The position numbers and the translations under genes are program-made. From Bacteroidaceae bacterium (GTDB lineage Bacteria; Bacteroidota; Bacteroidia; Bacteroidales; Bacteroidaceae): a DNA stretch of 37,760 nucleotides. Under the pieces are notes generated by a model. That model did no database searches. It saw only the letters and a list, made by a program, of their open reading frames with translations, and was not told the origin of the DNA. Below are positions 8,387 to 37,760 of the stretch, in pieces; within the stretch, counting starts at the first letter, position 1, and every line of letters begins with the position of its first letter. The stretch is taken from positions 1 to 37,760 of the forward strand of contig JAFZDY010000033.1 in the NCBI GenBank assembly GCA_017560945.1, read 5' to 3'.

Positions 8387-10327
8387 ATGAGTTATTTGCG
8401 ATTTGACAAGACGCTGATGACCAATCTGGAGGAGAGTCTTCAACGCGAGATTCTGCGCACCAATCGGTCGGGTGCCTATCATTGCTCGACCATCGTGGAT
8501 TGCAATACGCGCAAGTATCATGGGCTGCTCGTAGTGCCCATCCCTGGGATGGACGACGAGAACCATGTGTTGTTGTCGAGCCTCGATGAAACGGTGATTC
8601 AGCATGGGGCTGAGTTCAACCTTGGTCTGCATAAGTACCAAGGCAATAACTATAGTCCCAATGGACACAAGTACATTCGCGAGTTTGAGTGGGAGAAAGT
8701 GCCTACCACCCTCTATCGTGTGGGTGGTGTGATACTGAAGAAGGAGAAACTCTTTGTTCACCACGAGAATCGCATCCTTATCCGTTACACTCTATTGGAG
8801 GCTCACTCGGCCACTACATTGAGATTGCGCCCCTTCTTGGCCTTCCGAAGTGTTCGTGAATATACGCACGAAAATGCCCAAGCCAGTCGTGACTATCAGG
8901 TGGTGGAAAATGGTGTAAAGACCTGCATGTATCCTGGATATCCTGAGTTGGTAATGCAGTTGAACAAGAAGAACGATTTCCACTTCCACCCCGATTGGTA
9001 CAGAGGTATGGAGTATCCGAAGGAACAGGAGCGCGGATATGAGTTCAACGAAGATTTGTATGTGCCTGGCTACTTCGAAGTGGAGATTAAGAAGGGCGAG
9101 AGTGTGGTATTCTCGGGCGGATTGTCTGCGACACCTACTCGTAGTTTGAAGACAACATTTGACAAGGAGGTGGAGGTACGTGCACCGCGCGACAATTTTT
9201 ACCATTGCTTGGTGAATGCGGCTCATCAGTTCCACAATAAGCAGGGCGAGCGAAACTATGTGTTGGCCGGTTACCCATGGTTCAAGTGCAGAGCCAGAGA
9301 CATGTTCATCAGTTTGCCTGGATTGACATTGGCTGTGGGTGAGTTGGATGAGTTCCACAATGCGATGGAGACGGGTCGCGAGTCTATCAATGACTTTATC
9401 AACGAACGTCCGAGCGAGGCAAAGGTATATGAGATGGAGCATCCCGATATTCTTCTGTGGGCCGTGTGGACACTTCAACAATATGCCAAGATGGTGGGTG
9501 AGAAACAGTGTTGGGAGAGATATGGCCAACTGCTGATGGACATCATGGCTTACCTGACTGGTGGCAAGCATGTGAATTTGTTCCTCCATCAGAATGGATT
9601 GCTCTACACCAATGGCGTAGATAAAGCTGTAAGTTGGATGAACTCTACCGCTGGCGGACGCCCCGTAGTACCTCGTACAGGTTACTTGGTGGAGGTGAAT
9701 GCCTTGTGGTACAATGCGCTGATGTTTGCCGCCAAGATGATGAACGAACACGATGCTGTCTCACAAGCCTCTTCGTTGGAAAAGATAGCGGCAAAGGTCA
9801 AGGGTTCGTTCGTGGATACATTCCTCAATGAGTATGGATACTTGCTCGATTATGTGGATGGATACGTCATGGATTGGAGCGTAAGACCCAATATGATATT
9901 TACCGTTGCATTTGACTATAGCCCATTGGACACACATCAGAAGAAGCGCGTGTTGGACACAGTGACCAAAGAATTGTTGACTCCGAAGGGACTCCGCAGT
10001 TTGTCACCCAAGAGTGGTGGATACAACCCCAACTATGTAGGTTCTCAGAACCAACGCGACTATGCCTATCATCAGGGTACTGCTTGGCCGTGGTTGGCGG
10101 GTTTCTATTTCGAGGCTTATCTGCGCATCTATAAGTTAAGCGGACTCTCGTTTGTAGAGCGTCAGATGATTGGCTACGAGGCGGAGATGAACTCACATTG
10201 TGTGGGATCGATTCCTGAGTTGTTCGATGGTAATCCGCCGTTCAAGGGTAGAGGAGCTGTATCTTTTGCTATGAACGTGGCCGAGATATTGAGAACTTTG
10301 TATACATTAAATAAGTATAATATATAA
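8387..10327 (+). CDS. Glycogen debranching enzyme (archaeal/bacterial amylo-alpha-1,6-glucosidase type)
   Basis: Hydrolyses alpha-1,6 branch points in glycogen or imported alpha-glucans. The 646-aa protein has the N-terminal GDE_N domain (RTNRSGAYHCSTIVDCNTRKYHGLLV at about 24-49). It also has a C-terminal alpha/alpha six-barrel GDE_C domain with GYPWFKCRARDMFISLPGL, RPVVPRTGYLVEVNALWYNAL and YAYHQGTAWPWLAGFYFEAY. This is the single-activity bacterial type, unlike the bifunctional eukaryotic enzyme. It starts a three-gene glucan cluster with a GT4 glycosyltransferase 17 bp downstream. The same gene order (debranching, GT4, GH57) is known from Bacteroides. Confidence 0.93.
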   Translation: MSYLRFDKTLMTNLEESLQREILRTNRSGAYHCSTIVDCNTRKYHGLLVVPIPGMDDENHVLLSSLDETVIQHGAEFNLGLHKYQGNNYSPNGHKYIREFEWEKVPTTLYRVGGVILKKEKLFVHHENRILIRYTLLEAHSATTLRLRPFLAFRSVREYTHENAQASRDYQVVENGVKTCMYPGYPELVMQLNKKNDFHFHPDWYRGMEYPKEQERGYEFNEDLYVPGYFEVEIKKGESVVFSGGLSATPTRSLKTTFDKEVEVRAPRDNFYHCLVNAAHQFHNKQGERNYVLAGYPWFKCRARDMFISLPGLTLAVGELDEFHNAMETGRESINDFINERPSEAKVYEMEHPDILLWAVWTLQQYAKMVGEKQCWERYGQLLMDIMAYLTGGKHVNLFLHQNGLLYTNGVDKAVSWMNSTAGGRPVVPRTGYLVEVNALWYNALMFAAKMMNEHDAVSQASSLEKIAAKVKGSFVDTFLNEYGYLLDYVDGYVMDWSVRPNMIFTVAFDYSPLDTHQKKRVLDTVTKELLTPKGLRSLSPKSGGYNPNYVGSQNQRDYAYHQGTAWPWLAGFYFEAYLRIYKLSGLSFVERQMIGYEAEMNSHCVGSIPELFDGNPPFKGRGAVSFAMNVAEILRTLYTLNKYNI

Positions 10328-10328
10328 T

Positions 10329-10335
10329 AAGGAGG
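10329..10335 (+). promoter_or_regulatory. Unusually strong Shine-Dalgarno before the GT4 gene
   Basis: AAGGAGG lies 9 nt before ATG 10345. Most genes in this window lack a clear Shine-Dalgarno, as is usual in Bacteroidetes, so this site stands out. It fixes the start. Confidence 0.6.
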
Positions 10336-10344
10336 AACCTAACG

Positions 10345-11610
10345 ATGAAAGTGTTAATGTTTGGATGGGAATTTCCTCCCAAAATCCTTGGTGGATTGGC
10401 CGTAGCCTCATACGGTATTACAAAGGGCTTGAGCATGCAAGGCGATGTGGAAACCACCTTCTGCTTACCAAAGCCGACAGGTGAGGAGGAGAAGTTTCTC
10501 AACATCATAGGCATGAATCAAGTACCCATTGTGTGGCGCGACATGAACTACGATTATTTGAAATCGCGTTTGCAGAGCTACACCACCCCCGAGCAATACT
10601 ATGCCTTCCGTGACCATATCTATGCCGACTTCTCGTACATGCACGTGAACGAGTTGGGTTGTATGGAGTTTGCTGGAGGCTATCCTAAGAATCTGCACGA
10701 GGAGATCAATAACTACTCCATCATTGCTGGAGTGGTGGCTCGTCAACAGGAGTTTGACATCATTCACGCGCACGATTGGCTGACCTATCCCGCTGGTGTA
10801 CATGCCAAGATAGTGAGCGGAAAACCCTTGTGTATCCACGTACATGCAACGGACTTTGACCGTTCACGCGGAAAGGTAAACCCCACCGTGTATTCTATCG
10901 AAAAGGATGGTATGGATCATGCCGATTGCATTATGTGTGTGAGCGAACTCACCCGTCAGACGGTGATTCACCAATATCATCAGGATCCTCGCAAGTGTGT
11001 GGCTATGCACAATGCCGTATATCCTCTCTCCCAGGAGTTGCAGGAGATACCTCGCGTAGAGCATCCGAAGGAGAAGGTCGTTACCTTCCTTGGCCGTATC
11101 ACCATGCAAAAGGGACCCGAGTACTTCGTAGAGGCCGCAGCATTGGTACTCCAGCGCACACAAAACATTCGTTTCGTGATGGCAGGTTCGGGTGATATGC
11201 TCAATGCCATGATTAACTTAGCAGCTGAACGAGGCATTGCCGACCGCTTCCATTTCCCTGGCTTCCAAAAGGGTAAACAGGTGTACGAGGCGTACAAAAA
11301 TAGTGATGTATTCGTGATGCCCTCAGTGTCAGAACCTTTCGGTATTGCACCACTTGAGGCAATGCAGTGCGGTACTCCCTCTATCATCAGTAAACAATCA
11401 GGATGTGGTGAGATTCTCAACAATGTCATCAAGGTTGACTATTGGGATATCAATGCCATGGCCGATGCCATCTACTCCATCTGCACCAATCCCTCGCTCT
11501 TCAAGTTCTTGCAAGAGGAAGGAATCAAGGAGGTAGATCAGATTACGTGGGAGAAAGTAGGCTTGCGCCATCGTGCCATCTATGACGAGTTAATTAGAAA
11601 GAATAAGTAA
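10345..11610 (+). CDS. GT4 family glycosyltransferase (glycogen-synthase-like)
   Basis: Retaining GT-B glycosyltransferase of 421 aa. The N-terminal Rossmann domain starts MKVLMFGWEFPPKILGGLAV and carries DIIHAHDWLTYPAG. The C-terminal donor-binding domain carries FLGRITMQKGPEYFVEAA and the EX7E motif EPFGIAPLE (E330 and E338). The acceptor is not fixed by sequence. Because it sits between a debranching enzyme and a GH57 glucan hydrolase, a role in alpha-glucan elongation or in making a glucan primer is likely (inference). The window also encodes a GT3 glycogen synthase, so this enzyme is not the only candidate for chain elongation. Confidence 0.88.
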   Translation: MKVLMFGWEFPPKILGGLAVASYGITKGLSMQGDVETTFCLPKPTGEEEKFLNIIGMNQVPIVWRDMNYDYLKSRLQSYTTPEQYYAFRDHIYADFSYMHVNELGCMEFAGGYPKNLHEEINNYSIIAGVVARQQEFDIIHAHDWLTYPAGVHAKIVSGKPLCIHVHATDFDRSRGKVNPTVYSIEKDGMDHADCIMCVSELTRQTVIHQYHQDPRKCVAMHNAVYPLSQELQEIPRVEHPKEKVVTFLGRITMQKGPEYFVEAAALVLQRTQNIRFVMAGSGDMLNAMINLAAERGIADRFHFPGFQKGKQVYEAYKNSDVFVMPSVSEPFGIAPLEAMQCGTPSIISKQSGCGEILNNVIKVDYWDINAMADAIYSICTNPSLFKFLQEEGIKEVDQITWEKVGLRHRAIYDELIRKNK

Positions 11611-11712
11611 TAATCAAGGAAACAAAAGGAATATAAAGGAGTAGTCGGCTCTGACGAGCATAGAAGTTAATGCCAGATGATTAGCAATATCGTTAGTTAG
11701 TAGGTGAAATCT

Positions 11713-11765
11713 GCAATAACTCCTCTAAACTCCTAAGAGAAGCGATAACTCCTCTAACTCCTTAA
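11713..11765 (+). repeat. Two direct repeats rich in AACTCCT in the GH57 leader
   Basis: Two 24-bp copies (11713-11736 and 11742-11765) differ at few positions and together contain four AACTCC elements about 10-17 bp apart. They lie just before ATG 11781. A Shine-Dalgarno-like AAAGGAG lies at about 11635-11641 in the same 170-bp gap; CTCCT elements could pair with it. No TAnnTTTG promoter was seen here. Confidence 0.5.
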
Positions 11766-11780
11766 AACAAAGAATAAACA

Positions 11781-13193
11781 ATGAAAACAATCTGTCTTTA
11801 TTTCGAGATACACCAGATTATTCATCTGAAGCGCTACCGTTGCTTCGACATCGGTCGCGACCACTATTACTACGATGACTACGAAAACGAACGTAGTATT
11901 ACCGACATAGCTGAACGCAGTTATATCCCCTCGTTGACTACCCTTATCGACATGGCTAAGGCCAACGCAGGTGCTTTCAAGGTTGCCCTCTCGCTCTCAG
12001 GCGTAGGACTTGAGCAATTGGAGATGTATGCTCCGCGTGTGATTGAGTTGTTGCACGAATTGAACGAAACGGGTTGTTGCGAATTCTTGTGCGAACCCTA
12101 TTCACACGGCCTCTCGGCATTGGCCAACGAAGAGTGCTTCTGCGAAGACGTGGAGAATATGCGCAAGAAAATCAAGCAAATGTTTGGTCAAGATCCAAAA
12201 GTCTTCCGCAATAGTAGTTTGATTTATAGCAACGAGATAGGTGCCATGGTGGCCAAGATGGGCTTCAAGGGAATGCTTACTGAGGGTGCTAAGCACGTGC
12301 TCGGATGGAAGAGCCCTCACTATCTCTACCACTGCGCTTACAACAACAAGTTGAAGTTGCTCCTACGTGACTTCAAACTTTCGGATGACATCAGCCTTCG
12401 CTTCAACAATAGCGAGTGGAGCGAGTATCCCTTGTTTGCCGACAAGTACATAGGATGGATTGCTGATATGTCGGAGGAAGAGCAGGTGTTCAACATCTTT
12501 ATGGAGTTGTCTGCATTGGGAATCAGCCAACCACTCTCAAGCAACATTCTTGAGTTCTTGAAGGCATTGCCCGCTTGCGCCAAGGAGAGAGGAATCACCT
12601 TCTCTACACCTACGGAAATCATCTCTAAACTGAAATCTGTTGACCAATTGGATGTTCCCTATCCCCTCAGTTGGGTTGATGAGGAGCGCGATATCAGTTG
12701 CTGGTTGGGTAATGTAATGCAACGCGAAGCCTTCGACAAACTCTATAGTGTGGCCGATCGTGTACGCATCTGCACCGATCGTCGCATCAAGCAAGACTGG
12801 AGTTATATGCAAGCCTCTAACAACTTCCGCTTCATGACCACCAAGCAGACAGGCATATGGCTTAATCGTGGCATTTACGATTCACCTTTCGATGCCTTTA
12901 CCAACTATATGAATATCCTTGGTGACTTCATCAGCCGTGTGAACTCGCTCTATCCTGTTGAGATGGATAATGAAGAGTTGAATGCATTGTTGACCACCAT
13001 CAAGAATCAGGGTGAGGAGTTGCAGATGCTTCAGAAGGAGAATGACAAGTTGCAGGCAAAATTGGCCAAGTTGGCTCCCACACCTGCAAAAGTAAAGAAG
13101 GAGGTAGCCCCCAAGACCAAAAAGGAAACTGCTCCTAAGGCTAAAAAGGAAGCGACTCCTAAGAAAGCAACCAAAAAGGCTAAAGAGGCATAA
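11781..13193 (+). CDS. Glycoside hydrolase family 57 (alpha-amylase-like) with basic C-terminal tail
   Basis: 470-aa GH57 protein that probably cleaves or rearranges alpha-1,4-glucans in the cytoplasm (no signal peptide). The N-terminal region MKTICLYFEIHQIIHLKRY holds the family's conserved HQ. CEFLCEPYSHGLSAL and VFRNSSLIYSNEIGAMVAKMGF correspond to later GH57 signature regions; I could not place the nucleophile Glu with certainty. About residues 410-432 form a predicted coiled coil (QGEELQMLQKENDKLQAKLAK). The last 38 residues are almost only Lys, Ala, Pro, Thr and Glu with repeated PKxKKE units, resembling histone-H1-like tails. Third gene of the debranching/GT4/GH57 cluster, 170 bp after GT4. 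Confidence 0.88.
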   Translation: MKTICLYFEIHQIIHLKRYRCFDIGRDHYYYDDYENERSITDIAERSYIPSLTTLIDMAKANAGAFKVALSLSGVGLEQLEMYAPRVIELLHELNETGCCEFLCEPYSHGLSALANEECFCEDVENMRKKIKQMFGQDPKVFRNSSLIYSNEIGAMVAKMGFKGMLTEGAKHVLGWKSPHYLYHCAYNNKLKLLLRDFKLSDDISLRFNNSEWSEYPLFADKYIGWIADMSEEEQVFNIFMELSALGISQPLSSNILEFLKALPACAKERGITFSTPTEIISKLKSVDQLDVPYPLSWVDEERDISCWLGNVMQREAFDKLYSVADRVRICTDRRIKQDWSYMQASNNFRFMTTKQTGIWLNRGIYDSPFDAFTNYMNILGDFISRVNSLYPVEMDNEELNALLTTIKNQGEELQMLQKENDKLQAKLAKLAPTPAKVKKEVAPKTKKETAPKAKKEATPKKATKKAKEA

Positions 13194-13526: not shown

Positions 13527-14123
13527 ATGGAAAATAAGATTCAAGAGCTGACCGACAAACTTTTCCGCGAAGGAGTGGAGAAGGGTAATGAAGAAGCACA
13601 GCGAATCGTTGAGAAGGCGAATGGCGAGGCTGCCGAAATCGTGAAAAACGCAGAGAAGGAAGCCGAAAGAATAGTGGTTTCTGCCGAAAAGAAGGCTGCC
13701 GAGTTGTTGGAAAACACAAAGAAGGAACTTGGCCTGTATGCAGGACAGACGGTAAATGCACTGAAGAGTGAAGTGGCAAACTGCTTGACTAACAATGTGG
13801 TGGCCGATGCTGTGAAGGGTATGGTCGAGGACAAGGAATTCCTCTGCAAGTTTGCCGTGACACTGGCCGAGAAATGGGCCGCTGACGAAGCCGTTGTCAT
13901 CTCTACCTCTGAAGCCGATGCGTTAAAAGCTTACTTCTCCTCAAATGCCAAGGCTTTGTTGGATAAAGGTGTGAAGATTGAACAGGTGAATGGTCAAAAG
14001 AGCCTCTTCACCATTGCTCCCGCCGATGGTTCGTACAAGGTAAACTTCGGTACTGAGGAGTTTGAGCAGTTCTTCAAATCATTCCTCCGTCCTCAATTGG
14101 TGGAAATGTTGTTCAATAAGTAA
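13527..14123 (+). CDS. atpE: V-type ATP synthase/ATPase subunit E
   Basis: Peripheral-stalk subunit that links the catalytic head to the membrane sector. The 198-aa protein starts with a long charged helix rich in Ala, Glu and Lys (about residues 1-80: KGNEEAQRIVEKANGEAAEIV), typical of the E-subunit coiled coil that pairs with a G/H subunit. A C-terminal globular domain follows (FGTEEFEQFFKSFLRPQLVEML). It is the first gene of the operon E-DUF2764-A-B-D-I-K, with 15 bp to the next gene. No G/H or F subunit gene is present in this operon. Confidence 0.88.
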   Translation: MENKIQELTDKLFREGVEKGNEEAQRIVEKANGEAAEIVKNAEKEAERIVVSAEKKAAELLENTKKELGLYAGQTVNALKSEVANCLTNNVVADAVKGMVEDKEFLCKFAVTLAEKWAADEAVVISTSEADALKAYFSSNAKALLDKGVKIEQVNGQKSLFTIAPADGSYKVNFGTEEFEQFFKSFLRPQLVEMLFNK

Positions 14124-14138
14124 TACCTCCCGTCCCTT

Positions 14139-14978
14139 ATGAGTAATTACTATTGCCTGATGGCCGGTGTGCCCGACGTTGCATTGGACGACGCCCGTGG
14201 AGCACTGTCTATGGCTGAGTTCAAGGAGGAATTGGAGGGGATACTCACCGAGGCAGACAAGCAGTTGATGTTTTACCTCTACCTGCGCTACGATTGCCTG
14301 AACTTGGTGAAGATGTTGAAGAACCCCGAGGCTGAAATCAGCCCCTTGGGAAACTATACTCGCGATCAGTATATGGACATGATGACCTCTGCCCGCGAGA
14401 TGACCTTCAACGTACATCGTTACCCGAAATTTCTCTCAATCTTTGCCCGCGAATACTCCTATAATAAGGATAAGGCTGGCTACTTCCCCGAGGATGCAAT
14501 TATGCTCGAGTACTACTTGTATTCATTCAAGTGTCCCAATCGTATGTTGCGTAAGTGGTTCGAGATGAACTTGAACGTGACCAATATCCTTACTGCCTTG
14601 ATTGCCAAGAAGTACGGATGGAATGTGTCCGACTATATCCAAGGTGATAATATGGTATGCGACATGATTCGCCATAGCAATGCACGCGACTTCGGATTGA
14701 GTCTTGAATTGGATTACGTGGGCGACCTCATGAAGATTGTCGATTGTGACGACCCCGTGGAGAAGGAGAAACGTATCGATGCATTCAAGTGGATGTGGTT
14801 AGACGAGCAGACATTCATGGACGTCTTCTCTATCGAAGCCGTCTTTGCCTATATGTGCAAGTTGGAGATGCTCGAGCGTTGGGAAAAACTCGACTTGGAA
14901 ACAGGACGTGAGACCTTCCGCCAGATAATAGAAAACCTGCGTGGTGAGGCACGAGTGCCAGAGGAATTTAAAAGATAA
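14139..14978 (+). CDS. DUF2764 family protein in V-ATPase operon
   Basis: 279-aa protein matching the Bacteroidetes family DUF2764, which occurs inside V-type ATPase operons between subunits E and A. It begins MSNYYCLMAGVPDVALDD and is mainly alpha-helical, with many aromatic residues and no hydrophobic segment long enough for a membrane span. The E-x-A-B-D-I-K order and the absence of a recognisable C subunit suggest that it fills the role of subunit C (the rotor-to-membrane-ring connector). This is inferred from position and helical character, not seen directly. It is 15 bp after E and 20 bp before A, so translation is probably coupled. Confidence 0.8.
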   Translation: MSNYYCLMAGVPDVALDDARGALSMAEFKEELEGILTEADKQLMFYLYLRYDCLNLVKMLKNPEAEISPLGNYTRDQYMDMMTSAREMTFNVHRYPKFLSIFAREYSYNKDKAGYFPEDAIMLEYYLYSFKCPNRMLRKWFEMNLNVTNILTALIAKKYGWNVSDYIQGDNMVCDMIRHSNARDFGLSLELDYVGDLMKIVDCDDPVEKEKRIDAFKWMWLDEQTFMDVFSIEAVFAYMCKLEMLERWEKLDLETGRETFRQIIENLRGEARVPEEFKR

Positions 14979-14998
14979 AACTAAAGAATAAAATATAT

Positions 14999-16747
14999 AT
15001 GACAAAAGGAACTGTAAACGGCGTTATTGCCAATATGGTAACGCTGAAAGTGGATGGTCCTGTGTCTCAAGGCGAAATTTGCTACATCGAGACAGGTGGT
15101 GATCGTCTGATGTCGGAAGTCATCAAAGTGGTGGGTTCTGATGTGTATGTACAGGTATTCGAGAGTACACGTGGTTTGAAGGTCGGTGCAGTAGCCGAGT
15201 TTACAGGCCACATGTTGGAGGTTAAATTGGCCCCTGGTATGCTCTCAAAGAACTTTGATGGATTGCAAAACGACCTCGACAAGATGGAAGGTGTGTTCTT
15301 GAAACGCGGACAATACACCGACCCTATCGACGAAGATCGTCTGTGGGAATTTACACCCATTGCCAAAGTAGGCGACGAAGTACAAGCCGCAGATTGGTTG
15401 GGTGGTGTAGATGAAAACTCACAACCCTTGAAAATCATGGTACCCTTCCAACTCGAAGGAAAGGCCAAGGTCAAGAGCATTGCCGCTAAAGGACAGTACA
15501 AGGTAACCGATGTGGTGGCCGTATTGACCGATGCTGAAGGAAACGACATCGAGGTGAACATGATTCAACACTGGCCGGTGAAGTTTGCAATGACAAACTA
15601 TAAGCAGAAACCTCGTCCTTTCAAATTGTTGGAGACAGGTGTACGCACCATTGATACATTCAATCCCATTGTAGAGGGTGGTACAGGATTCATCCCTGGT
15701 CCCTTCGGTACAGGTAAGACAGTGCTTCAGCATGCAATCTCAAAGCAAGCCGAGGCAGATATTGTAATCATTGCCGCTTGTGGTGAGCGTGCCAACGAGG
15801 TCGTGGAAATCTTTACCGAGTTCCCCGAATTGGACGACCCCCACACAGGTCGCAAGTTGATGGAGCGAACCATCATTATCGCCAACACTTCTAACATGCC
15901 CGTAGCCGCTCGTGAAGCATCTGTTTATACCGCCATGACCATGGCTGAGTACTATCGTGCAATGGGTCTTCGTGTATTGTTGATGGCCGACTCTACTTCA
16001 CGTTGGGCACAGGCATTGCGTGAAATGTCAAACCGTATGGAAGAATTGCCTGGTCCTGATGCTTTCCCCATGGACTTGTCTGCCTTGATTTCAAATTTCT
16101 ACGGACGTGCAGGATATGTATATTTGAACAACGGAGAGGTAGGATCAATCACATTCATCGGTACTGTGTCTCCCGCTGGTGGAAACTTGAAGGAACCTGT
16201 GACCGAGAATACTAAGAAGGTAGCACGTTGCTTCTATGCTTTGGAGCAAGATCGTGCCGATAAGAAACGCTATCCGGCCGTGAACCCCATTGACTCGTAT
16301 TCAAAATACTTGGAGTATCCCGAGTTTGCCGAATACATCAAGGAGCGTATCAACGATCGCTGGATACCGAAGGTACTTGACTTGAAAACCCGTATGTTGC
16401 GCGGTAAGGAAATTGCTGAGCAGATCAACATCTTGGGTGACGATGGTGTGCCCGTGGATTATCACGAAACATTCTGGAAGTCGGAAATCATCGACTTTGT
16501 TATCCTTCAACAGGATGCCTTTGACGATGTAGATGCTGTAACCTCATTGGAGCGTCAGGAAGAAATCCTCGACTTGGTGGTGGAAATCTGTAACATCGAC
16601 TTTAAGTTTGACAACTTCCTGGATGTGGTAGATTATTTCAAGAAGATGATTAACGTATGCAAGCAGATGAACTATGCTGAGTTCAAGTCGGAACAATATT
16701 ACGACTTCAAGAACCAGATTCAAGAGATGCTTGTGGCACACAAATAA
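14999..16747 (+). CDS. atpA: V-type ATP synthase/ATPase catalytic subunit A
   Basis: Catalytic subunit that hydrolyses or makes ATP in the V1 head. The 582-aa length is normal. The beta-barrel start (KGTVNGVIANMVTLKVDG) precedes the V-type 'non-homologous' insert region. The Walker A GPFGTGKT is at residues 234-241. The sequences IIIAACGERANEVVEIF, NTSNMPVAAREASVYTAMT, LLMADSTSRWAQALREMS and LPGPDAFPMDL carry the Arg and Glu of the active site. It is followed 15 bp later by subunit B. Very well conserved and unambiguous. Confidence 0.97.
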   Translation: MTKGTVNGVIANMVTLKVDGPVSQGEICYIETGGDRLMSEVIKVVGSDVYVQVFESTRGLKVGAVAEFTGHMLEVKLAPGMLSKNFDGLQNDLDKMEGVFLKRGQYTDPIDEDRLWEFTPIAKVGDEVQAADWLGGVDENSQPLKIMVPFQLEGKAKVKSIAAKGQYKVTDVVAVLTDAEGNDIEVNMIQHWPVKFAMTNYKQKPRPFKLLETGVRTIDTFNPIVEGGTGFIPGPFGTGKTVLQHAISKQAEADIVIIAACGERANEVVEIFTEFPELDDPHTGRKLMERTIIIANTSNMPVAAREASVYTAMTMAEYYRAMGLRVLLMADSTSRWAQALREMSNRMEELPGPDAFPMDLSALISNFYGRAGYVYLNNGEVGSITFIGTVSPAGGNLKEPVTENTKKVARCFYALEQDRADKKRYPAVNPIDSYSKYLEYPEFAEYIKERINDRWIPKVLDLKTRMLRGKEIAEQINILGDDGVPVDYHETFWKSEIIDFVILQQDAFDDVDAVTSLERQEEILDLVVEICNIDFKFDNFLDVVDYFKKMINVCKQMNYAEFKSEQYYDFKNQIQEMLVAHK

Positions 16748-16750
16748 TAT

Positions 16751-16756
16751 AAGGAG
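16751..16756 (+). promoter_or_regulatory. Shine-Dalgarno of subunit B
   Basis: AAGGAG lies 6 nt before ATG 16763, in the 15-bp gap after subunit A. It is one of the few canonical ribosome binding sites in the window and fits a subunit needed in high amount. Confidence 0.5.
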
Positions 16757-16762
16757 AAAGAT

Positions 16763-17959
16763 ATGGCAACAACAGCTTTTCAAAAAGTATATACGAAAAT
16801 CAGTCAGATTACCAAGGCTACCTGTTCGCTGAAAGCAAAGGGGGTAGGGTATGACGAACTGGCTACCATCAATGGCAAACTTGCTCAGGTGGTAAAGATT
16901 GCAGGTGAAGATGTAACCCTTCAGGTGTTCGAAGGAACAGGCGGTATCCCCACCGATGCTGAAGTGGTGTTCTTGGGAAAATCTCCCTCACTGAAAGTTG
17001 GTGACCAATTGGCCGGACGTTTCTTCAATGCTTATGGTGCTCCTATCGATGGAGGACCCGAGATTGAGGGAAAAGAGGTGGAAATCGGTGGCCCGTCAGT
17101 AAACCCTGTTCGCCGTAAACAACCAAGTGAACTCATAGCCACAGGTATTGCAGGTATCGACTTGAACAATACATTGGTGTCTGGTCAAAAGATTCCTTTC
17201 TTTGCTGACCCTGACCAACCGTTCAACGAAGTGATGGCTATGGTAGCCCTTCGTGCAAAGGTTGACAAGATTATCTTGGGAGGTATGGGTATGACCAACG
17301 ATGACTATTACTTCTTCCGCAATACCTTCTCCAATGCCGGTGCACTTGACCGTATCATCTGCTTTATGAATACGACTGAAGACCCCGCCGTAGAGCGTCT
17401 GTTGATTCCTGATATGGCACTTACTGCAGCTGAATACTTTGCTGTGGAGAAGAATGAGAAGGTACTCGTATTGTTGACTGATATGACCTCTTATGCTGAC
17501 TCATTGGCTATTGTGTCAAATCGTATGGATCAGATTCCTTCAAAGGACTCTATGCCAGGCTCACTCTATTCAGACTTAGCCAAGATCTACGAAAAAGCCG
17601 TGCAATTCCCCGAGGAAGTAGGTGGAGGTTCAATCACCATCATTGCCGTGACTACGTTGTCTGGTGGAGACATCACTCATGCTGTACCTGATAATACTGG
17701 TTACATTACAGAAGGACAACTTTACTTGCGTCGCGATTCAGATGTAGGTAAGGTCATCATTGACCCCTTCCGTTCATTGTCTCGTTTGAAACAATTGGTG
17801 GCAGGAAAGAAAACTCGTAAGGATCATAGTCAGGTAATGAATGCTGCAATTCGTCTTTATTCAGATGCTGCCAATGCAAAGACTAAGATGGAGAACGGTT
17901 TTGACTTGACTGATTACGATAACCGTTGTCTTGAATTTGCCAAGGATTATGCAGGCTAG
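16763..17959 (+). CDS. atpB: V-type ATP synthase/ATPase subunit B, ended early by an in-frame TAG
   Basis: Non-catalytic nucleotide-binding subunit that alternates with A in the V1 hexamer. Residues 1-398 match the family (YTKISQITKATCSLKAKGV, GRFFNAYGAPIDGGPEI, FFADPDQPFNEVMAM, VLLTDMTSYADSLAIVSNRM, GSLYSDLAKIYEKA). The frame is then closed by TAG at 17957-17959, straight after CLEFAKDYAG. Subunit B is normally about 440 aa or more, and the sequence after the TAG continues in the same frame for 43 codons with the expected C-terminal helices. The gene as read is therefore truncated, recently mutated, read through, or wrongly sequenced at one codon. All neighbours are intact. Confidence 0.9.
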   Translation: MATTAFQKVYTKISQITKATCSLKAKGVGYDELATINGKLAQVVKIAGEDVTLQVFEGTGGIPTDAEVVFLGKSPSLKVGDQLAGRFFNAYGAPIDGGPEIEGKEVEIGGPSVNPVRRKQPSELIATGIAGIDLNNTLVSGQKIPFFADPDQPFNEVMAMVALRAKVDKIILGGMGMTNDDYYFFRNTFSNAGALDRIICFMNTTEDPAVERLLIPDMALTAAEYFAVEKNEKVLVLLTDMTSYADSLAIVSNRMDQIPSKDSMPGSLYSDLAKIYEKAVQFPEEVGGGSITIIAVTTLSGGDITHAVPDNTGYITEGQLYLRRDSDVGKVIIDPFRSLSRLKQLVAGKKTRKDHSQVMNAAIRLYSDAANAKTKMENGFDLTDYDNRCLEFAKDYAG

Positions 17960-18091
17960 TTGTTGGCTATTGACGTGAACCTCGATACCGAAGAGATGCT
18001 CGATGTAACATGGACACTCTTCCGTAAGTACTTCAAGATTGAAGAGGTGAACATCAAGAAGGAATTTACGGATATTTACTGGAAAGACTAA
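17960..18091 (+). other. C-terminal coding segment of subunit B beyond the amber codon
   Basis: In frame with subunit B, 43 sense codons run from LLAIDVNLDTEEMLDV through KKEFTDIYWKD to TAA at 18089-18091. This is the usual end of V-ATPase subunit B, and it restores a total length of about 442. There is no indel, no other stop and normal codon choice. The first codon after TAG is TTG, so re-initiation is formally possible, but no Shine-Dalgarno precedes it. Confidence 0.85.
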
Positions 18092-18136
18092 CATATTGAG
18101 AGATATATCGCTCTTAAATTATTAGTTGAATAAAAA

Positions 18137-18742
18137 ATGGCAATAAAGTTTCAATATAACAAAACATCGCTTCAACAGATTGAAAAGCAACTGAAGATGC
18201 GACAACGTACCTTGCCCATTATCAAGAGCAAGGAGACTGCGTTGCGTTTGGAAGTTAAGAAATGCAAGGAGGAGGCCGTGGATTTGGAGAAGAAACTGGA
18301 AAGTCAGATTGGTGGATACGAATCAATGTATGCTCTATGGGGAGAGTTTGACCCTTCGTTGGTGGCTCTCAAGGATGTGGAATTGGATATAAAGAAGATT
18401 GCTGGTGTCCGTGTCCCTGTATTGAAAAACATACGTTTGGAAGTTCGCCCATTTGGTTTGTTCAGTGCTCCGAAATGGTATTTCGATGGAATCAATCTGT
18501 TGCAAGGACTTGCCAAGACTGCTGTCGAGCGCGAATTTGTGCTTGCCAAGTTAGGCTTATTGGAGCATGCCCGCAAGAAGACTACTCAGAAGGTGAATCT
18601 TTTTGAGAAAGTCCAGATTCCGGGTTTCCAAGAGGCCGTACGCAAGATCAAGCGATTTATGGAAGATGAGGAGAACCTCTCTAAATCTTCACAGAAAATC
18701 TTGAAGTCACTTCAGGAGAAGAGAAAGGAGGCTGAGGCATGA
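18137..18742 (+). CDS. atpD: V-type ATP synthase/ATPase subunit D
   Basis: Central rotor shaft that turns inside the A3B3 head. The 201-aa product is two long helices that pair as an antiparallel coiled coil: N-terminal FQYNKTSLQQIEKQLKMRQR and C-terminal VRKIKRFMEDEENLSKSSQK. The less helical middle carries the family's LKNIRLEVRPFGLF-like segment. It lies 45 bp after the restored end of subunit B. Its last four bases overlap the start of subunit I (ATGA), so D and I are translationally coupled. Confidence 0.93.
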   Translation: MAIKFQYNKTSLQQIEKQLKMRQRTLPIIKSKETALRLEVKKCKEEAVDLEKKLESQIGGYESMYALWGEFDPSLVALKDVELDIKKIAGVRVPVLKNIRLEVRPFGLFSAPKWYFDGINLLQGLAKTAVEREFVLAKLGLLEHARKKTTQKVNLFEKVQIPGFQEAVRKIKRFMEDEENLSKSSQKILKSLQEKRKEAEA

Positions 18743-20601
18743 TTCAGAAAATGAAAAAACTGACATTCCTTGTTACTGGTAAGGAATATGATCAGTTCTT
18801 GACTGATATACGTGAGTTGGGCGTTCTTCACATTCAAGAATTGCAGAGCGGCGCTACAAGTCCCGCATTGCAGGAGGGTTTGGCTTTGGCTGAACGATAC
18901 ACTAATGTGTTAAAAGCATTAGATTTCGTAGCTGAAACCTATACCTTTGATGTGAAGATTGAACGTCAACCTGCTGATGCGTCCAAAGCTCTGACTTTGG
19001 TGCAAAATGTGGAAAATAAGTTGGCTGAAGAATATAAACTGAAGCATCAGATTGATAGTGTAGAGAAGTCTATCGAAACCCTGCTCCCTTGGGGAGATTT
19101 TGATTGGGCTTCAGTAGAGCGCCTCTCATCTGTGGGCTATCAGACAAATTTCTATAGCTGTCCTAATAAAATGTTCAAGCCCGAGTGGATTGAGAATTAT
19201 TTTGCACAAATTATTAGTGAAGCAGGTGGAAAATCGTACTTTGTAACTTTCTCAACTGAAACTCCCGATATAGCAGCAGAGAGATTGCAACTTCCTGAGA
19301 AATCTCTTTCTTATTATAATAAGGAGAAAACTGAGTTGGTCGACAAGTTAACAGAGGTGCGTAAATGTCTCTATCAGTTGAATCTTGAGCAACGCGCAAG
19401 TATTTTGGCAGGACAAGTGGAGAATGAAAACAATATCTCTCTCTCCAAAGTACACTTGAATACCGAGTCTGTGGCGGGCGATGCTGTAAAACTGATTGTT
19501 GGATGGACATTGGAAGAGAAGGCCGATGAGGTGGTTTCATATTTGGAAGCCCATCATGTGTACTTCGAAATGGAAGATCCTACATTGGAGGATGATGTGC
19601 CTGTACAGATAAAGAATGACGCTTATAGTTCGTTGTTCGAACCTATATTGCGTATGTACTCTTTGCCTAAGTATCACGATTTGGATCCTACACCTTTCTT
19701 TGCTCCTTTCTTTATGCTCTTCTTTGGATTGTGCATGGGCGATGCAGGTTATGGCCTTATCATCTTATTGGTAAGTTTGATCTTGCGTAAGAAGTTGAGC
19801 GCCGACATGAAGGGATATGGTACGTTGGGTATCATCCTTGGAGCCATGACTATGGTATGTGGTGCATTGACAGGTTCATTCCTCGGTATTGACCTCAATC
19901 AGACAGATTGGGCATTCTTGGCTCCCATTAAACCATACTTTATTAGTGATGCAAACTTCACTTTGTTTGGCTATTCTCCTATGATGGTGATTTCTGTCTT
20001 CATCGGCTTAGTACAAGTCTTGTTGGGTATGGTCATGTCTGGAATAAAGGCAGCAAAGTTGTATGGTTGGAAGTTTGGAATAGGTAAGATGTCCTGGGTA
20101 ACCGCCTTGTTATCTGCAATTGTCTGCTTTGGATTACCAGCATGTGGAGTGACTTTGCCTATTATCATTACATATATGCTATATGTATTGATTGGAATTT
20201 CCGTATTGGGAATATTCTTCTTGAACTCTCCAGATAAGAACCTCTTAATGAACTTTGGTTCTGGATTGTGGGATACGTATGGCATGGCAACAGGATTGTT
20301 GGGTGACCTTCTCAGTTATATCCGCTTGTTTGCTCTTGGTTTGACCGGCGGTGTATTGGGTGGTGTGTTCAATGAATTGGCAATGGATTTGACATCAGAC
20401 ATGTCCTGGGCTGTTCGTTGGTTACCTATGCTTATCATCCTGTTATTGGGCCATGGTATCAACTTTGCTCTTTGTATGATTTCATCATTCGTACACCCTA
20501 TGCGATTGACTTTTGTAGAGTTCTTCAAGAATGCAAGTTTCGAGGGTGGTGGCAAGGAGTACTCACCTTTCCGTATGAAAATTTTCAAGGAAAATAAATA
20601 A
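18739..20601 (+). CDS. atpI: V-type ATP synthase/ATPase subunit I (a-subunit, stator membrane channel)
   Basis: Membrane stator subunit that forms the two ion half-channels next to the K ring. The 620-aa protein has a cytoplasmic N-terminal half with coiled coils (about 1-320). The C-terminal half has about seven to eight membrane helices starting at FFAPFFMLFFGLCMGDAGYG (about 315-335). The essential Arg facing the rotor is R529 in LSYIRLFALGLTGG, equivalent to Arg735 of yeast Vph1. The start ATG overlaps the subunit D stop codon by 4 bp. A 42-bp A-rich gap separates it from subunit K. Confidence 0.95.
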   Translation: MIQKMKKLTFLVTGKEYDQFLTDIRELGVLHIQELQSGATSPALQEGLALAERYTNVLKALDFVAETYTFDVKIERQPADASKALTLVQNVENKLAEEYKLKHQIDSVEKSIETLLPWGDFDWASVERLSSVGYQTNFYSCPNKMFKPEWIENYFAQIISEAGGKSYFVTFSTETPDIAAERLQLPEKSLSYYNKEKTELVDKLTEVRKCLYQLNLEQRASILAGQVENENNISLSKVHLNTESVAGDAVKLIVGWTLEEKADEVVSYLEAHHVYFEMEDPTLEDDVPVQIKNDAYSSLFEPILRMYSLPKYHDLDPTPFFAPFFMLFFGLCMGDAGYGLIILLVSLILRKKLSADMKGYGTLGIILGAMTMVCGALTGSFLGIDLNQTDWAFLAPIKPYFISDANFTLFGYSPMMVISVFIGLVQVLLGMVMSGIKAAKLYGWKFGIGKMSWVTALLSAIVCFGLPACGVTLPIIITYMLYVLIGISVLGIFFLNSPDKNLLMNFGSGLWDTYGMATGLLGDLLSYIRLFALGLTGGVLGGVFNELAMDLTSDMSWAVRWLPMLIILLLGHGINFALCMISSFVHPMRLTFVEFFKNASFEGGGKEYSPFRMKIFKENK

Positions 20602-20619
20602 TAAACAAAACAATAATAA

Positions 20620-21099
<480 letters not shown>

Positions 21100-21259: not shown

Positions 21260-21294
21260 CACCGGTTACTAATTTTAGGTATAATTTGAGAGAA

Positions 21295-22962
21295 ATGACG
21301 AATAAAATGCAAACTCCGGATTACATTTTTGAATCCAGTTGGGAGGTCTGCAATAAAGTAGGTGGTATTTACACCGTGTTGTCTACGAGAGCGAAGACAT
21401 TACAAGAAACTTTTAATGACAGAATAATATTTGTAGGACCGGATTTCTGGCAGAACAAAGAAAATCCTCTTTTTATTGAAGACAAGGCATTATATGCTGA
21501 ATGGAAGAAGCAAGCTTCCATCGAAGGATTGCAAGTAAGAACAGGTCGATGGAACATTCCTGGCCAACCGTTGGTTATATTAGTAGATTTCCAACCTTTC
21601 TTTGCGCAAAAGAATCAGATATATGCCGATATGTGGAACGATTTTCAGATTGATTCACTCCATGCTTATGGCGACTATGACGAGGCGTCCATGTTTTCTT
21701 ATGCTTCGGCAAAGGTGGTAGAAAGTTTCTATCGTTTTTGTTTGACTGAGAATACCAATGTGGTTTATCAGGCACACGAGTGGATGACAGGTATGGGTGC
21801 TCTTTATTTGCAAAAGGCTGTTCCCGAGATTGCCACCATCTTTACGACCCATGCTACTTCTATCGGACGTAGTATCGCAGGAAACAACAAGCCTCTTTAT
21901 GATTATCTCTTCGCATACAATGGCGACCAAATGGCTTATGAACTGAATATTCAATCCAAACATTCAGTAGAGAAACAGACGGCTCATTTTGTGGATTGCT
22001 TCACTACGGTGAGCGATATCACAGCTCGTGAATGTGCCGAGTTGCTCGACAAACCTGCTGATGTGGTGTTGATGAACGGATTCGAGAATGATTTTGTGCC
22101 CGTAGGCTCGTCTTATACAGCCAAGCGTAAAAAGGCACGTCAATTGAAACTCCGTCTTGCCAATTGCTTGTTGGGTGAAGAATTCAAGGATGATGAAACA
22201 CTCATCATCGGTACCAGTGGTCGATATGAATTCAAGAACAAGGGTATCAATGTCTTCTTGGAGGCTCTTAACCGATTGAATCGCGACAAGAATCTGAAGA
22301 AGAAAGTGTTGGCTTTTGTGAATGTACCCAGTTGGGTAGGAGACCCTCGTGAAGATCTTTTGGAAAGATTGAATAGTAAAGAAGTATTTACTACTCCGTT
22401 GTCTTGTCCATTGATCACTCACTGGTTGCACAATATGACACATGACCAAGTACTCGATATGTTAAAATATTTGGGTATGGGAAATAATCCCGATGATAAG
22501 GTGAAAGTAATCTTTGTTCCTTGTTATCTGGATGGCTTTGATGGTATTGTCAATAAGCATTATTACGATGTAGTCTTGTGTGAAGATTTGACAGTTTATC
22601 CTTCGTATTATGAGCCTTGGGGATATACTCCGCTTGAAAGTGTGGCGTTCAAAGTTCCCACTATTACTACAGATTTGGCAGGTTTCGGATTGTGGGCAAA
22701 CACTCTAAAGAATAATGGCAAGTATAGCGAATTGGAAGATGGTGTGAAGGTTATCCATCGTTCAGACTACAACTACTCCGAGGTTGCCGATGCCATTCGC
22801 GACACCATTGTAGAGTTTTCAGGAAAGAGCGATGCAGAGGTTAAGAAGATACGCAAGAATGCTGCTTCAGTAGCCGAGAAGGCATTGTGGAAACACTTTA
22901 TACAATATTATTACGAAGCATACGACATTGCCCTTCGAAAGGCTCAAAAGCGTAATGCCTAA
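21295..22962 (+). CDS. Glycogen synthase, eukaryotic type (GT3)
   Basis: Elongates alpha-1,4-glucan chains. Unlike the bacterial GlgA (GT5), the 555-aa protein resembles fungal/animal glycogen synthase. The N-terminus YIFESSWEVCNKVGGIYTVL holds the donor-binding KVGGIYTV loop. The C-terminal half has YPSYYEPWGYTPLES, with the EX7E pair E440 and E448, followed by TITTDLAGFG. GT3 enzymes commonly prefer UDP-glucose; GT5 enzymes commonly use ADP-glucose. The start is placed at ATG 21295; a TTG at 21286 and an ATG at 21307 are also in frame. The phosphorylase follows 80 bp later, so one transcript is likely. Confidence 0.92.
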   Translation: MTNKMQTPDYIFESSWEVCNKVGGIYTVLSTRAKTLQETFNDRIIFVGPDFWQNKENPLFIEDKALYAEWKKQASIEGLQVRTGRWNIPGQPLVILVDFQPFFAQKNQIYADMWNDFQIDSLHAYGDYDEASMFSYASAKVVESFYRFCLTENTNVVYQAHEWMTGMGALYLQKAVPEIATIFTTHATSIGRSIAGNNKPLYDYLFAYNGDQMAYELNIQSKHSVEKQTAHFVDCFTTVSDITARECAELLDKPADVVLMNGFENDFVPVGSSYTAKRKKARQLKLRLANCLLGEEFKDDETLIIGTSGRYEFKNKGINVFLEALNRLNRDKNLKKKVLAFVNVPSWVGDPREDLLERLNSKEVFTTPLSCPLITHWLHNMTHDQVLDMLKYLGMGNNPDDKVKVIFVPCYLDGFDGIVNKHYYDVVLCEDLTVYPSYYEPWGYTPLESVAFKVPTITTDLAGFGLWANTLKNNGKYSELEDGVKVIHRSDYNYSEVADAIRDTIVEFSGKSDAEVKKIRKNAASVAEKALWKHFIQYYYEAYDIALRKAQKRNA

Positions 22963-23042
22963 TCAGCGTAGTAATATATAAATAGGTATTTAGAGAGAAA
23001 ATTAATAGAAACAGAATCGTTATTTATAAATTAAGTACAGAA

Positions 23043-25607
23043 ATGAAATTAAAAGCAAGTAACGCGAATACTCCTAATTGGAAGGAGATTACCGTTAAGG
23101 CGAGCATTCCTGCTGAATTGAAGAAGTTGGAAGAGTTGGCTCGCAACATGTGGTGGGCTTGGAATCACGAGGCAACAGATTTGTTCGGTGATTTGGATCC
23201 CGCTCTTTGGAAAGAAGTAGCTCAGAATCCTGTTCTCCTGTTGGAGCGCATGAGCTATGAAAAATTGGCTGAATTGGCAGCAGACAAGACTATTCTTAGT
23301 CGTATTGACGCAGTATATGCACAATTCCGTGCTTATATGGACGTACAGCCCGATGCAAACCGTCCTTCAGTAGCATACTTCTGCATGGAGTATGGTTTGA
23401 GTCATGTATTGAAAATCTATTCTGGCGGTCTTGGAATTCTTGCCGGTGACTATTTGAAGGAGGCTTCTGATAGCAACGTTGATATGTGTGCTGTTGGTTT
23501 TCTCTATCGTTTTGGATACTTCACTCAGTCACTTTCAATGGATGGCCAGCAAGTTGCAAACTATGAGGCTCAGAACTTCGGTTCATTGCCCATCGAACGC
23601 ACCTTGGATGCCAATGGCAACCCCGTAGTTGTGGAGGTTCCCTATATGGACTATAAGGTTCATGCTTATGTATGGACAGTAAATGTAGGTCGTATCAAGC
23701 TCTATTTGCTCGATACTGACAACGAGTTGAACAGCGAGTTCGACAAGAGTATCACTCACGCCCTCTATGGTGGTGATTGGGAAAACCGCTTGAAGCAGGA
23801 GATTCTTCTTGGTATCGGTGGTATTCTCACTCTCCAGAAGTTGGGTATCAAGAAAGATATCTACCACTGCAACGAGGGTCACGCAGCCCTCTGCAACGTA
23901 CAGCGTTTGTGCGATTACGTGAAGAGTGGCCTCACCTTCAACCAGGCTATGGAGTTGGTTCGTGCCTCTTCACTCTACACTGTACATACTCCCGTTCCCG
24001 CTGGTCACGACTATTTCGACGAAGGTCTCTTCGGCAAGTACATGAGCGGTTATCCTCAGATGATGGGTATTTCTTGGGACGAGTTCATGGATATGGGTCG
24101 TATCAACCCGGGTGACAAGGGCGAGCGTTTCTGCATGTCAACTTTCGCTTGCAACACTTGCCAGGAAGTAAATGGTGTAAGCTGGTTGCACGGAGAGGTA
24201 TCTAAGAGCATGTTCTCAGGCATCTGGAAGGGATATTTCCCCGAAGAGTCACACGTAGGATATGTAACCAATGGTGTACACTTCCCCACATGGAGTGCTA
24301 CAGAGTGGAAGAACCTCTACAACAAGCACTTCGACAAGGCTTTCATGGGTGACCAGAGCAATCAGAAGATTTGGGAGAAGATTTACGAAGTGAGTGATGA
24401 AGAGATCTGGAACACCCGTTTGGCTCTCAAGAACAAGCTCATCGACTACATCCGTAAGAGCTTCCGCGAGGATTGGTTGAAGAACCAGGGCGATCCCAGC
24501 CGTATCGTGTCATTGATGGAGAAGATCAACCCCAACGCATTGTTGATTGGTTTCGCTCGTCGTTTTGCTACATACAAGCGTGCACACCTGTTGTTCACCG
24601 ACCTCGACCGTTTGGCTAAGATTGTGAACAATCCTAACTATCCTGTTCAGTTCCTCTTCGCCGGTAAGGCACATCCCCACGATGGTGGTGGTCAGGGACT
24701 CATCAAGAAGATTTACGAGATTTCACGTCGTCCCGAGTTCCTCGGTAAGATTATCTTCCTCGAGAACTACGACATGAAGTTGGCTCGTCGTCTTGTGTCA
24801 GGTGTAGACATTTGGATGAACACTCCGACTCGTCCCCTCGAAGCATCAGGTACTTCTGGTGAAAAGGCATTGATGAATGGTGTTGTAAACCTCTCTGTAC
24901 TCGATGGATGGTGGCTCGAGGGTTACCGCGAAGGTGCTGGTTGGGCATTGACTGAGAAGCGTACTTACCAGAACCAAGAGCATCAGGACCAGCTCGATGC
25001 TGCTACTATTTACAGCTTGCTCGAGAACGAAATCCTTCCTCTCTACTACGCTCGCAACTCTAAGGGCTATAGCGAAGGTTGGGTACGTACCATCAAGAAC
25101 TCTATCTCTCAGGTAGCTCCTCACTACACCATGAAGCGTCAGTTGGACGACTACTATAGCAAGTTCTATTGCAAGGAAGCTGCCCGCTTTGCTGAGATTT
25201 CTGCCAACGACAACGAAAAGGCTAAGGAAATCGCTGCATGGAAGGAGCAAGTAGCTGCCGTATGGGATCAGATTGAGGTGGTTTCTTCAACTAAGGACGA
25301 AGCACTTCTCGCTGGTTCTACCGAGACAGGCAAGGAGTACACCATTACCCACGTTGTGGATGAGAAGGGCTTGGATGATGCTATCGGTATCGAACTCGTT
25401 TCTATCTATAAGGACAAGGAGGGTAAGGATCACGTATACAGCGTTGAACCTATGGATGTTGTTAAGCGCGAGGGTAACCTCTTCACCTTCCAGTGCAAGC
25501 ACCACTTGGATCACGGTGGTTCATACCGTGTGGCATATCGTATGTTCCCCAAGAACGTCAACTTGCCTCACCGTCAGGACTTCTGCTACGTTCGTTGGTT
25601 CGTGTAA
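23043..25607 (+). CDS. glgP: Alpha-glucan (glycogen) phosphorylase, short GT35 subfamily
   Basis: PLP-dependent enzyme that releases glucose 1-phosphate from alpha-glucan ends. The 854-aa protein belongs to the subfamily with an N-terminal DUF3417-like domain ([20 protein letters not shown]). The catalytic core has [34 protein letters not shown] and [20 protein letters not shown], where K608 is the probable PLP lysine. The usual motif in this subfamily is GTSGMKA; the Met is Glu here. A C-terminal beta-rich extension (about 750-854) follows. It lies 80 bp after glycogen synthase and ends at a strong terminator, which gives a synthesis/breakdown pair in one unit. Codon bias in the second half suggests high expression. 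Confidence 0.93.
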
Positions 25608-36912: not shown

Positions 36913-37760
36913 CTATATATTCTTTACCTGTTTTTGAAGTTCTTCCATTCTCTGCATAAGTTCATCAAACTCTAATGATTCTCCATAAATAAAGAAACGC
37001 CTCATATCAGCATAATCATCTTGCCATGCCTCCATAACCGATTCTGGTATCTTAAAGTTGATGGTTGATGGTGAATGTAAATTATAGTTTACGTACTTCA
37101 ATGCATAATATGTTTTGCGATGCTCAACAATGGTGTCATAAAGATTTCGATTCGATAAAGCTTCTACACCATATTTGGTATCCATCAGTTTCTCCAAGTC
37201 ATACAGATGTCGTGACATTCGTACGCTTCTTGGTTTTTCTTTTTGGAATTCTTCTGCCAATAGAAATAGTTTCTCAAGGAACGTACGAGTAGGAACTACG
37301 GTTCTAACAAAACTATCTGCATCAGTATCTTCTCCATCAAAACTTTCACCTATTAGAGAACGGATTGGTCGTAATTCCGTTGGTTCATCCATTGAAAGAC
37401 AACTTATCTCAATCTTTACACGTGGAGGAATATAATTTATCGTATCCTCAAGAATTGACGGGTAGTGTAACAGAATTACCGTAGGATCTTTATCTGAATC
37501 TATCGGTCGCCATTCTCCATCTTTATCTTGTACCTGAGATACATTCTCGATGGTGTAACCTGAAACTCCTATTTCTTTCAAGTTGGCATCTAATTGAGCA
37601 GAAAGAGTCTCGTGGATATATGCTCGTGACATTTTGCGTAATTTTTCACGCTGACTTTTACCAGTCTTCTCAATACCAAAGAATGAATGACTGATTGCTA
37701 AGTCAATGTCTTCAGAAAAACGTTCTATGATGCCAAAACCTTTTGACAACGATGTTCCGC
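36913..37760 (-). CDS. AbiEii/AbiGii-type nucleotidyltransferase toxin, partial (N-terminus outside window)
   Basis: The reading frame is open to the window edge and encodes the family motif GTSLSKGFGIIERFSEDIDL, in which the GTSxSK and DxD-like residues bind nucleotide and metal. The C-terminal part includes VKIEISCLSMDEP and a helical end MEELQKQVKNI. At least 281 residues are present and the stop is TAG at 36913-36915. AbiEii-family proteins are toxins that modify tRNA or other targets by adding nucleotides, usually paired with an AbiEi antitoxin encoded upstream, which would be outside this window. GC is higher than in the ATPase/TOPRIM genes, so it may be of separate origin. Confidence 0.85.
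   Translation of the reverse strand, partial: GTSLSKGFGIIERFSEDIDLAISHSFFGIEKTGKSQREKLRKMSRAYIHETLSAQLDANLKEIGVSGYTIENVSQVQDKDGEWRPIDSDKDPTVILLHYPSILEDTINYIPPRVKIEISCLSMDEPTELRPIRSLIGESFDGEDTDADSFVRTVVPTRTFLEKLFLLAEEFQKEKPRSVRMSRHLYDLEKLMDTKYGVEALSNRNLYDTIVEHRKTYYALKYVNYNLHSPSTINFKIPESVMEAWQDDYADMRRFFIYGESLEFDELMQRMEELQKQVKNI

Follow-up and report, generated by a model that had tools for sequence, protein, structure and literature searches.

Genomes that carry an amber suppressor or have recoded TAG have TAG codons inside conserved genes. Assembly errors account for many of the internal stops seen in assembled bacterial genomes (Cooley and Wright 2024, PMC11017572), and Belinky et al. (2021, PMC7918605) describe in-frame stops as tending to persist only briefly. 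Here we describe an in-frame TAG in the gene for V-type ATPase subunit B of a Bacteroidaceae bacterium, found in a stretch of 37,760 nucleotides which was analysed as a whole (the window). This stretch forms contig 32 of a draft assembly with 57 contigs, a total of 2,347,499 bases and a completeness of 81.84%. The window's case resembles the assembly-error pseudogenes of PMC11017572 in that a single stop interrupts a draft-assembly gene without other defects, but here an assembly error is only a possible cause. With the short-lived stops of PMC7918605 it has in common the TAG, the purifying selection around it and the sense codon in relatives; however, the worked example in that paper has the same TAG in eight sequences, whereas the TAG of the window is seen in one genome only. 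A TAG within a conserved gene is also common to the window's genome and to amber-suppressor or TAG-recoded genomes, from which the window's genome departs in that no suppressor tRNA is seen, release factor 1 is present and TAG is a normal stop. Among the titles listed by a literature search, none is on this V-ATPase B gene. Most likely the TAG arose by an ordinary recent mutation or through an error of assembly, and does not represent a new way of reading genes.

The TAG is codon 399 of subunit B and is found at 17957-17959 (+ strand) in a frame that starts with the ATG at 16763. The first 398 codons with the premature TAG occupy 16763..17959 (+) and match NCBIfam NF002555 with 638 bits (cut-off 431), Pfam PF00006 and, in part, PF22919. 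On the 3' side of the TAG, 43 in-frame codons stay open and are followed by a TAA at 18089-18091, the remainder of the gene with its stop spanning 17960..18091 (+). In the relative G004 the intact subunit B gene is 442 codons long, and the window gene can be aligned to it codon for codon with no indels; counted against the G004 gene, the residues lost through the TAG number 44 (399-442). The first-pass annotation had placed the TAG 43 codons before the end of B with the downstream part in frame and free of indels, and both the frame and the G004 alignment confirm this; its observation of an in-frame TAG with an intact tail was correct. The tail is real gene sequence and not a chance extension, since its first 40 codons, at 0.52 bits per codon, have the top coding score among the 41 candidate extensions of a scan that covered 1.46 Mb, or 62% of the assembly. 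For the last 43 codons of ordinary ORFs, in a sample of 832 kb, the median score is 0.26 and the 95% point 0.52. The tail was also considered as a separate small gene and this was rejected, as it has no Pfam match, its first ATG is its thirteenth codon and it is fused to B in the relatives read.

Relatives were taken from the 8 of 14 other genus genomes in which B was found and from the best 80 of 578 confirmed loci, minus duplicates. Two of the 93 rows belong to the window's own genome and 3 end before the codon; removal of 3 duplicates from the remaining 88 left 85 distinct relatives. Within this set of genus genomes and best 80 of 578 loci, no stop was found at the place of codon 399, all 85 having a sense codon there. 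The residue is Lys in 55, Gln in 20, Ala in 4, Arg in 3 and Asn, His and Glu in one each, with Lys and Gln together accounting for 75 of the 85, and is thus variable among relatives yet always sense. Since every distinct relative read has a sense codon, the TAG is private to the window's genome. A sense codon in relatives had been named beforehand as the sign of an error or a private mutation, and this is the situation in the related species.

The V-ATPase operon (13527-21099, + strand) has the gene order E, C (DUF2764), A, B, D, I, K. The gene at 13527..14123 (+), which we take to be subunit E from the gene order, has a Pfam ATP-synt_B match of 25.5 bits, just under the cut-off of 28, and is 90% identical to its counterpart in G004, with a TAA end in both. 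It is followed by the DUF2764 or subunit C-like gene at 14139..14978 (+; PF10962, with vATP-synt_AC39 under the cut-off) and by subunit A at 14999..16747 (+; NF003220 with 745 bits against a cut-off of 470, 97% identical to G004). Beyond B lie subunit D at 18137..18742 (+; PF01813, 98.5% identical to G004), subunit I at 18739..20601 (+; PF01496) and subunit K at 20644..21099 (+; PF00137). E, C, A, D, I and K are all open from ATG to stop, in agreement with the earlier claim that the other operon genes are intact. Subunits I and K (18739-21099) are merely 38% and 47% identical to those of G004, as against 97-98.5% for A, B and D; in the relatives L033 and L034, subunit I is 83-84% identical to that of the window and K, of which part is present, 98%. 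In the line of G004, the membrane half of the operon appears to have been replaced. The operon is flanked by glycogen-metabolism genes (8387-13193 and 21286-25607), with a debranching enzyme, a glycosyltransferase and a GH57 on one flank and glycogen synthase and phosphorylase on the other.

Up to the stop, B and its G004 counterpart differ by 191 synonymous and 17 nonsynonymous changes (dN 0.019, dS 1.9). The tail has 13 synonymous and no nonsynonymous differences, and its protein is 100% identical to that of L003, the locus of G004. With no constraint on the tail along its own branch after the split from G004, about 50 amino-acid changes would be expected, against the none seen. As a rough estimate, with equal branches assumed and dS near saturation, the tail has been unconstrained for no more than about 6% of its own branch. 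At near-invariant columns the own genome has no private change in B, in the tail or in D, and one in A. With the own genome included, rows with no private change make up 40 of 86 for B, 79 of 86 for the tail and 61 of 76 for D, and for A 46 of 72 rows have none or one. Since the private changes in B, the tail, D and A are within the range of the other rows, the stop is not accompanied by further decay; decay elsewhere in the operon was likewise rejected, the G004 comparison and the private-change counts giving no sign of it. Furthermore, since the tail has no amino-acid differences and the stop is private, the stop would be either very young, or an error, or read through with the tail still translated, a choice that appears to lie beyond sequence alone.

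We put the probability at roughly 85% that the TAG is a private, very young and non-adaptive single-base nonsense change in an otherwise intact B gene. That it is a base-level error or a minor variant fixed into the draft assembly has, in our estimate, slightly less than an even chance, and that it is a real and recent null allele of a pump that may be dispensable is a possibility that we hold more tentatively, this split being inferred from one genome of the species and from its assembly sequence. The slight preference for an error arises because a second lone TAG (see below) lies in a gene conserved through the genus. The first-pass annotation had offered four explanations, of which a recent nonsense change and a single-base error are those that we favour; for a working truncated B we found no support, and for readthrough or suppression no positive support.

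If the TAG is real, ribosomes would halt after codon 398 and release factor 1 would free a B subunit without the second half of its C-terminal domain. Assembly of V1 would probably fail with such a subunit, and the cell would live on its F-type ATP synthase. It is likely that a real stop would cause loss of V-ATPase function. No further intact copy of B turned up in the window's genome, the three other matches being F-type alpha, F-type beta and V-type A. The F-type atpA and atpD genes (alpha and beta) are present and full length. In the genus, B was found in 8 of the 14 other genomes and was not found in 4 of the 6 others that are at least 90% complete, weak matches in other genomes being assigned to the F-type by identity and length. 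Since B is patchy in the genus and F-type alpha and beta are full length, the V-ATPase pump may be dispensable in the window's organism.

The scan of 1.46 Mb produced one further case besides B, a TMEM260-like gene (PF11028, formerly named DUF2723) at L185:8766-12113 (- strand), which corresponds to G000:C16:48766-52113. It is split by a lone in-frame TAG after 408 codons, the part before the TAG being G000:C16:50890-52113, with 707 coding codons behind. A match was found in 13 of the 14 other genus genomes, in uninterrupted frames of 1111-1181 codons. At the place of the TAG the relatives have Leu in 10 and Trp in 3 of the 13 rows read, the place being located through a motif anchor in 13 of 14 relative rows (not found in L206) and one genome contributing two of the Leu rows. 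Against G004, dN is 0.029 and dS 1.50 before the TAG, and 0.070 and 1.93 after it, with a similar pattern against five further relatives, all of these being comparisons of the own gene with a relative; both parts appear to be under purifying selection, the second with the higher dN. Since the gene is present in 13 of the 14 genomes its real loss would be surprising, which favours an error or suppression over a simple null allele.

The other scan candidates were judged mostly by eye from their translations, with five looked at more closely and one pair (L162) taken to Pfam. They were neighbouring genes with a nearby ATG, short ends unlike a continued gene, or antisense-looking frames, and by this judgement no TAA or TGA interruption was recognised among them. 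That both recognised cases involve TAG, and none TAA or TGA, gives a slight lean towards something specific to TAG, although two events are too few. At L162, an AAA/DUF4143 ATPase gene that terminates in TAG is immediately followed, at L162:4907-5209, by what remains of the C-terminal part of a sugar-nucleotide dehydratase (PF16363); this arrangement suggests an insertion into a gene rather than readthrough. In two relatives, the same coding-score scan over 372 kb yielded 9 candidates, and by eye none of these resembled a continued conserved gene. A frameshift-rich assembly was rejected, there being no frame change in 77 relative ORFs with a match in the window's genome. Apart from a start difference in one gene, the interruptions among these ORFs are B and the TMEM260-like gene (2 of 77, which overstates the rate because the two control stretches were picked for holding these genes; without them, 0 of 75). 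The gene set aside as a start difference is one of the own genes, in L163, where the stops fall right at the beginning of the alignment. In the reverse comparison, 2 of 68 own ORFs with a match in the relatives' stretches were flagged, with stops at the alignment end, and these were set aside as end differences.

It is also possible, but unlikely, that the TAG is read through, either by near-cognate misreading or by a suppressor tRNA encoded in the missing part of the genome, giving some full-length B and a low-level pump. Readthrough would also leave a tail with no nonsynonymous differences, and it would fit the finding that another conserved gene of the genome is likewise interrupted by a single TAG with coding sequence behind it, with no TAA or TGA case recognised. 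PMC7918605 makes the case that many bacterial genes with in-frame stops should not be counted as pseudogenes. However, TAG is an ordinary stop in this genome, since the release factor 1 gene prfA is intact (450.9 bits against a cut-off of 423.25, in an open frame of 371 with no internal stops), no UAG-reading tRNA is present among 45 and most TAG-ending genes end normally. ARAGORN read no CUA anticodon among these 45 tRNAs in a genome that is 81.84% complete, and the list is visibly incomplete, with tRNA-Ile also missing; the missing CUA tRNA is therefore weak evidence for a true absence and leaves readthrough some room. Among the 837 coding-like ORFs that reach 120 aa, 81 terminate in TAG. 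Where a TAG-ending gene has a comparable relative, the two ends lie no more than 15 residues apart in 9 of 11 genes, and the same holds for 38 of 38 TAA genes and 16 of 16 TGA genes; the two exceptions are subunit B and the TMEM260-like gene, and this 2 of 11 is also an overstated rate, which becomes 0 of 9 without the stretches picked for these genes. An AbiEii-type nucleotidyltransferase gene at 36913-37749 (- strand; PF08843) also terminates in TAG, as the first-pass annotation had correctly reported.

The RNA 3' of the codon-399 TAG folds with a z of -2.02 against shuffles, but at least as good a fold is found in 21 of 85 relatives without the stop (including the best 80 of 578 loci). It is thus not unusually structured, and a readthrough hairpin after the TAG was rejected, since relatives without the stop fold equally well. 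The stop itself is common to none of the 85 relatives read, again including the best 80 of 578 loci, which also speaks against readthrough. A related proposal is that low-level amber suppression, through an unseen suppressor tRNA encoded in the missing part of the genome, would let a few conserved genes (V-ATPase B and the TMEM260-like gene) carry lone TAGs while most genes still end at TAG; we regard this as distinctly improbable.

That the 398-residue B is functional as a truncated subunit is very improbable. The truncated protein still contains the complete nucleotide-binding domain (PF00006) and passes the NF002555 cut-off with the score given above. However, its match to PF22919 covers only profile positions 6-54 of 101, compared with 6-99 or 6-100 in three intact relatives, so that half of the C-terminal domain is missing. 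The B of L003 aligns to residue 460 of the 465-residue B chain of a solved Na+-ATPase (3vr2_D), and without the tail to residue 412. Furthermore, none of the 85 relatives (including the best 80 of 578 loci) stops at codon 399, and the C-terminal region of human B1 is mentioned in passing as critical for assembly between subunits in a case report that cites earlier work (PMC6297984). Reassignment of TAG to one amino acid, for which the in-frame TAG in two conserved genes could be cited, is barely conceivable and was rejected, because the lost residues differ between the two genes (mostly Lys or Gln in B, Leu or Trp in the TMEM260-like gene), TAG ends so many coding-like ORFs normally and prfA is present, which upholds the doubt that the first-pass annotation had expressed about general reassignment.

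The preferred reading, a fresh single-base change or an error, carries a caution for similar cases: when a draft genome shows a clean in-frame stop, the usual cause is an error or a recent null allele, and readthrough is not proved by the preservation of the tail or by the integrity of the operon. Should the TAG be real and translated, the two conserved genes in one genome would allow tolerated amber suppression to be tested directly in a lineage of the Bacteroidales.
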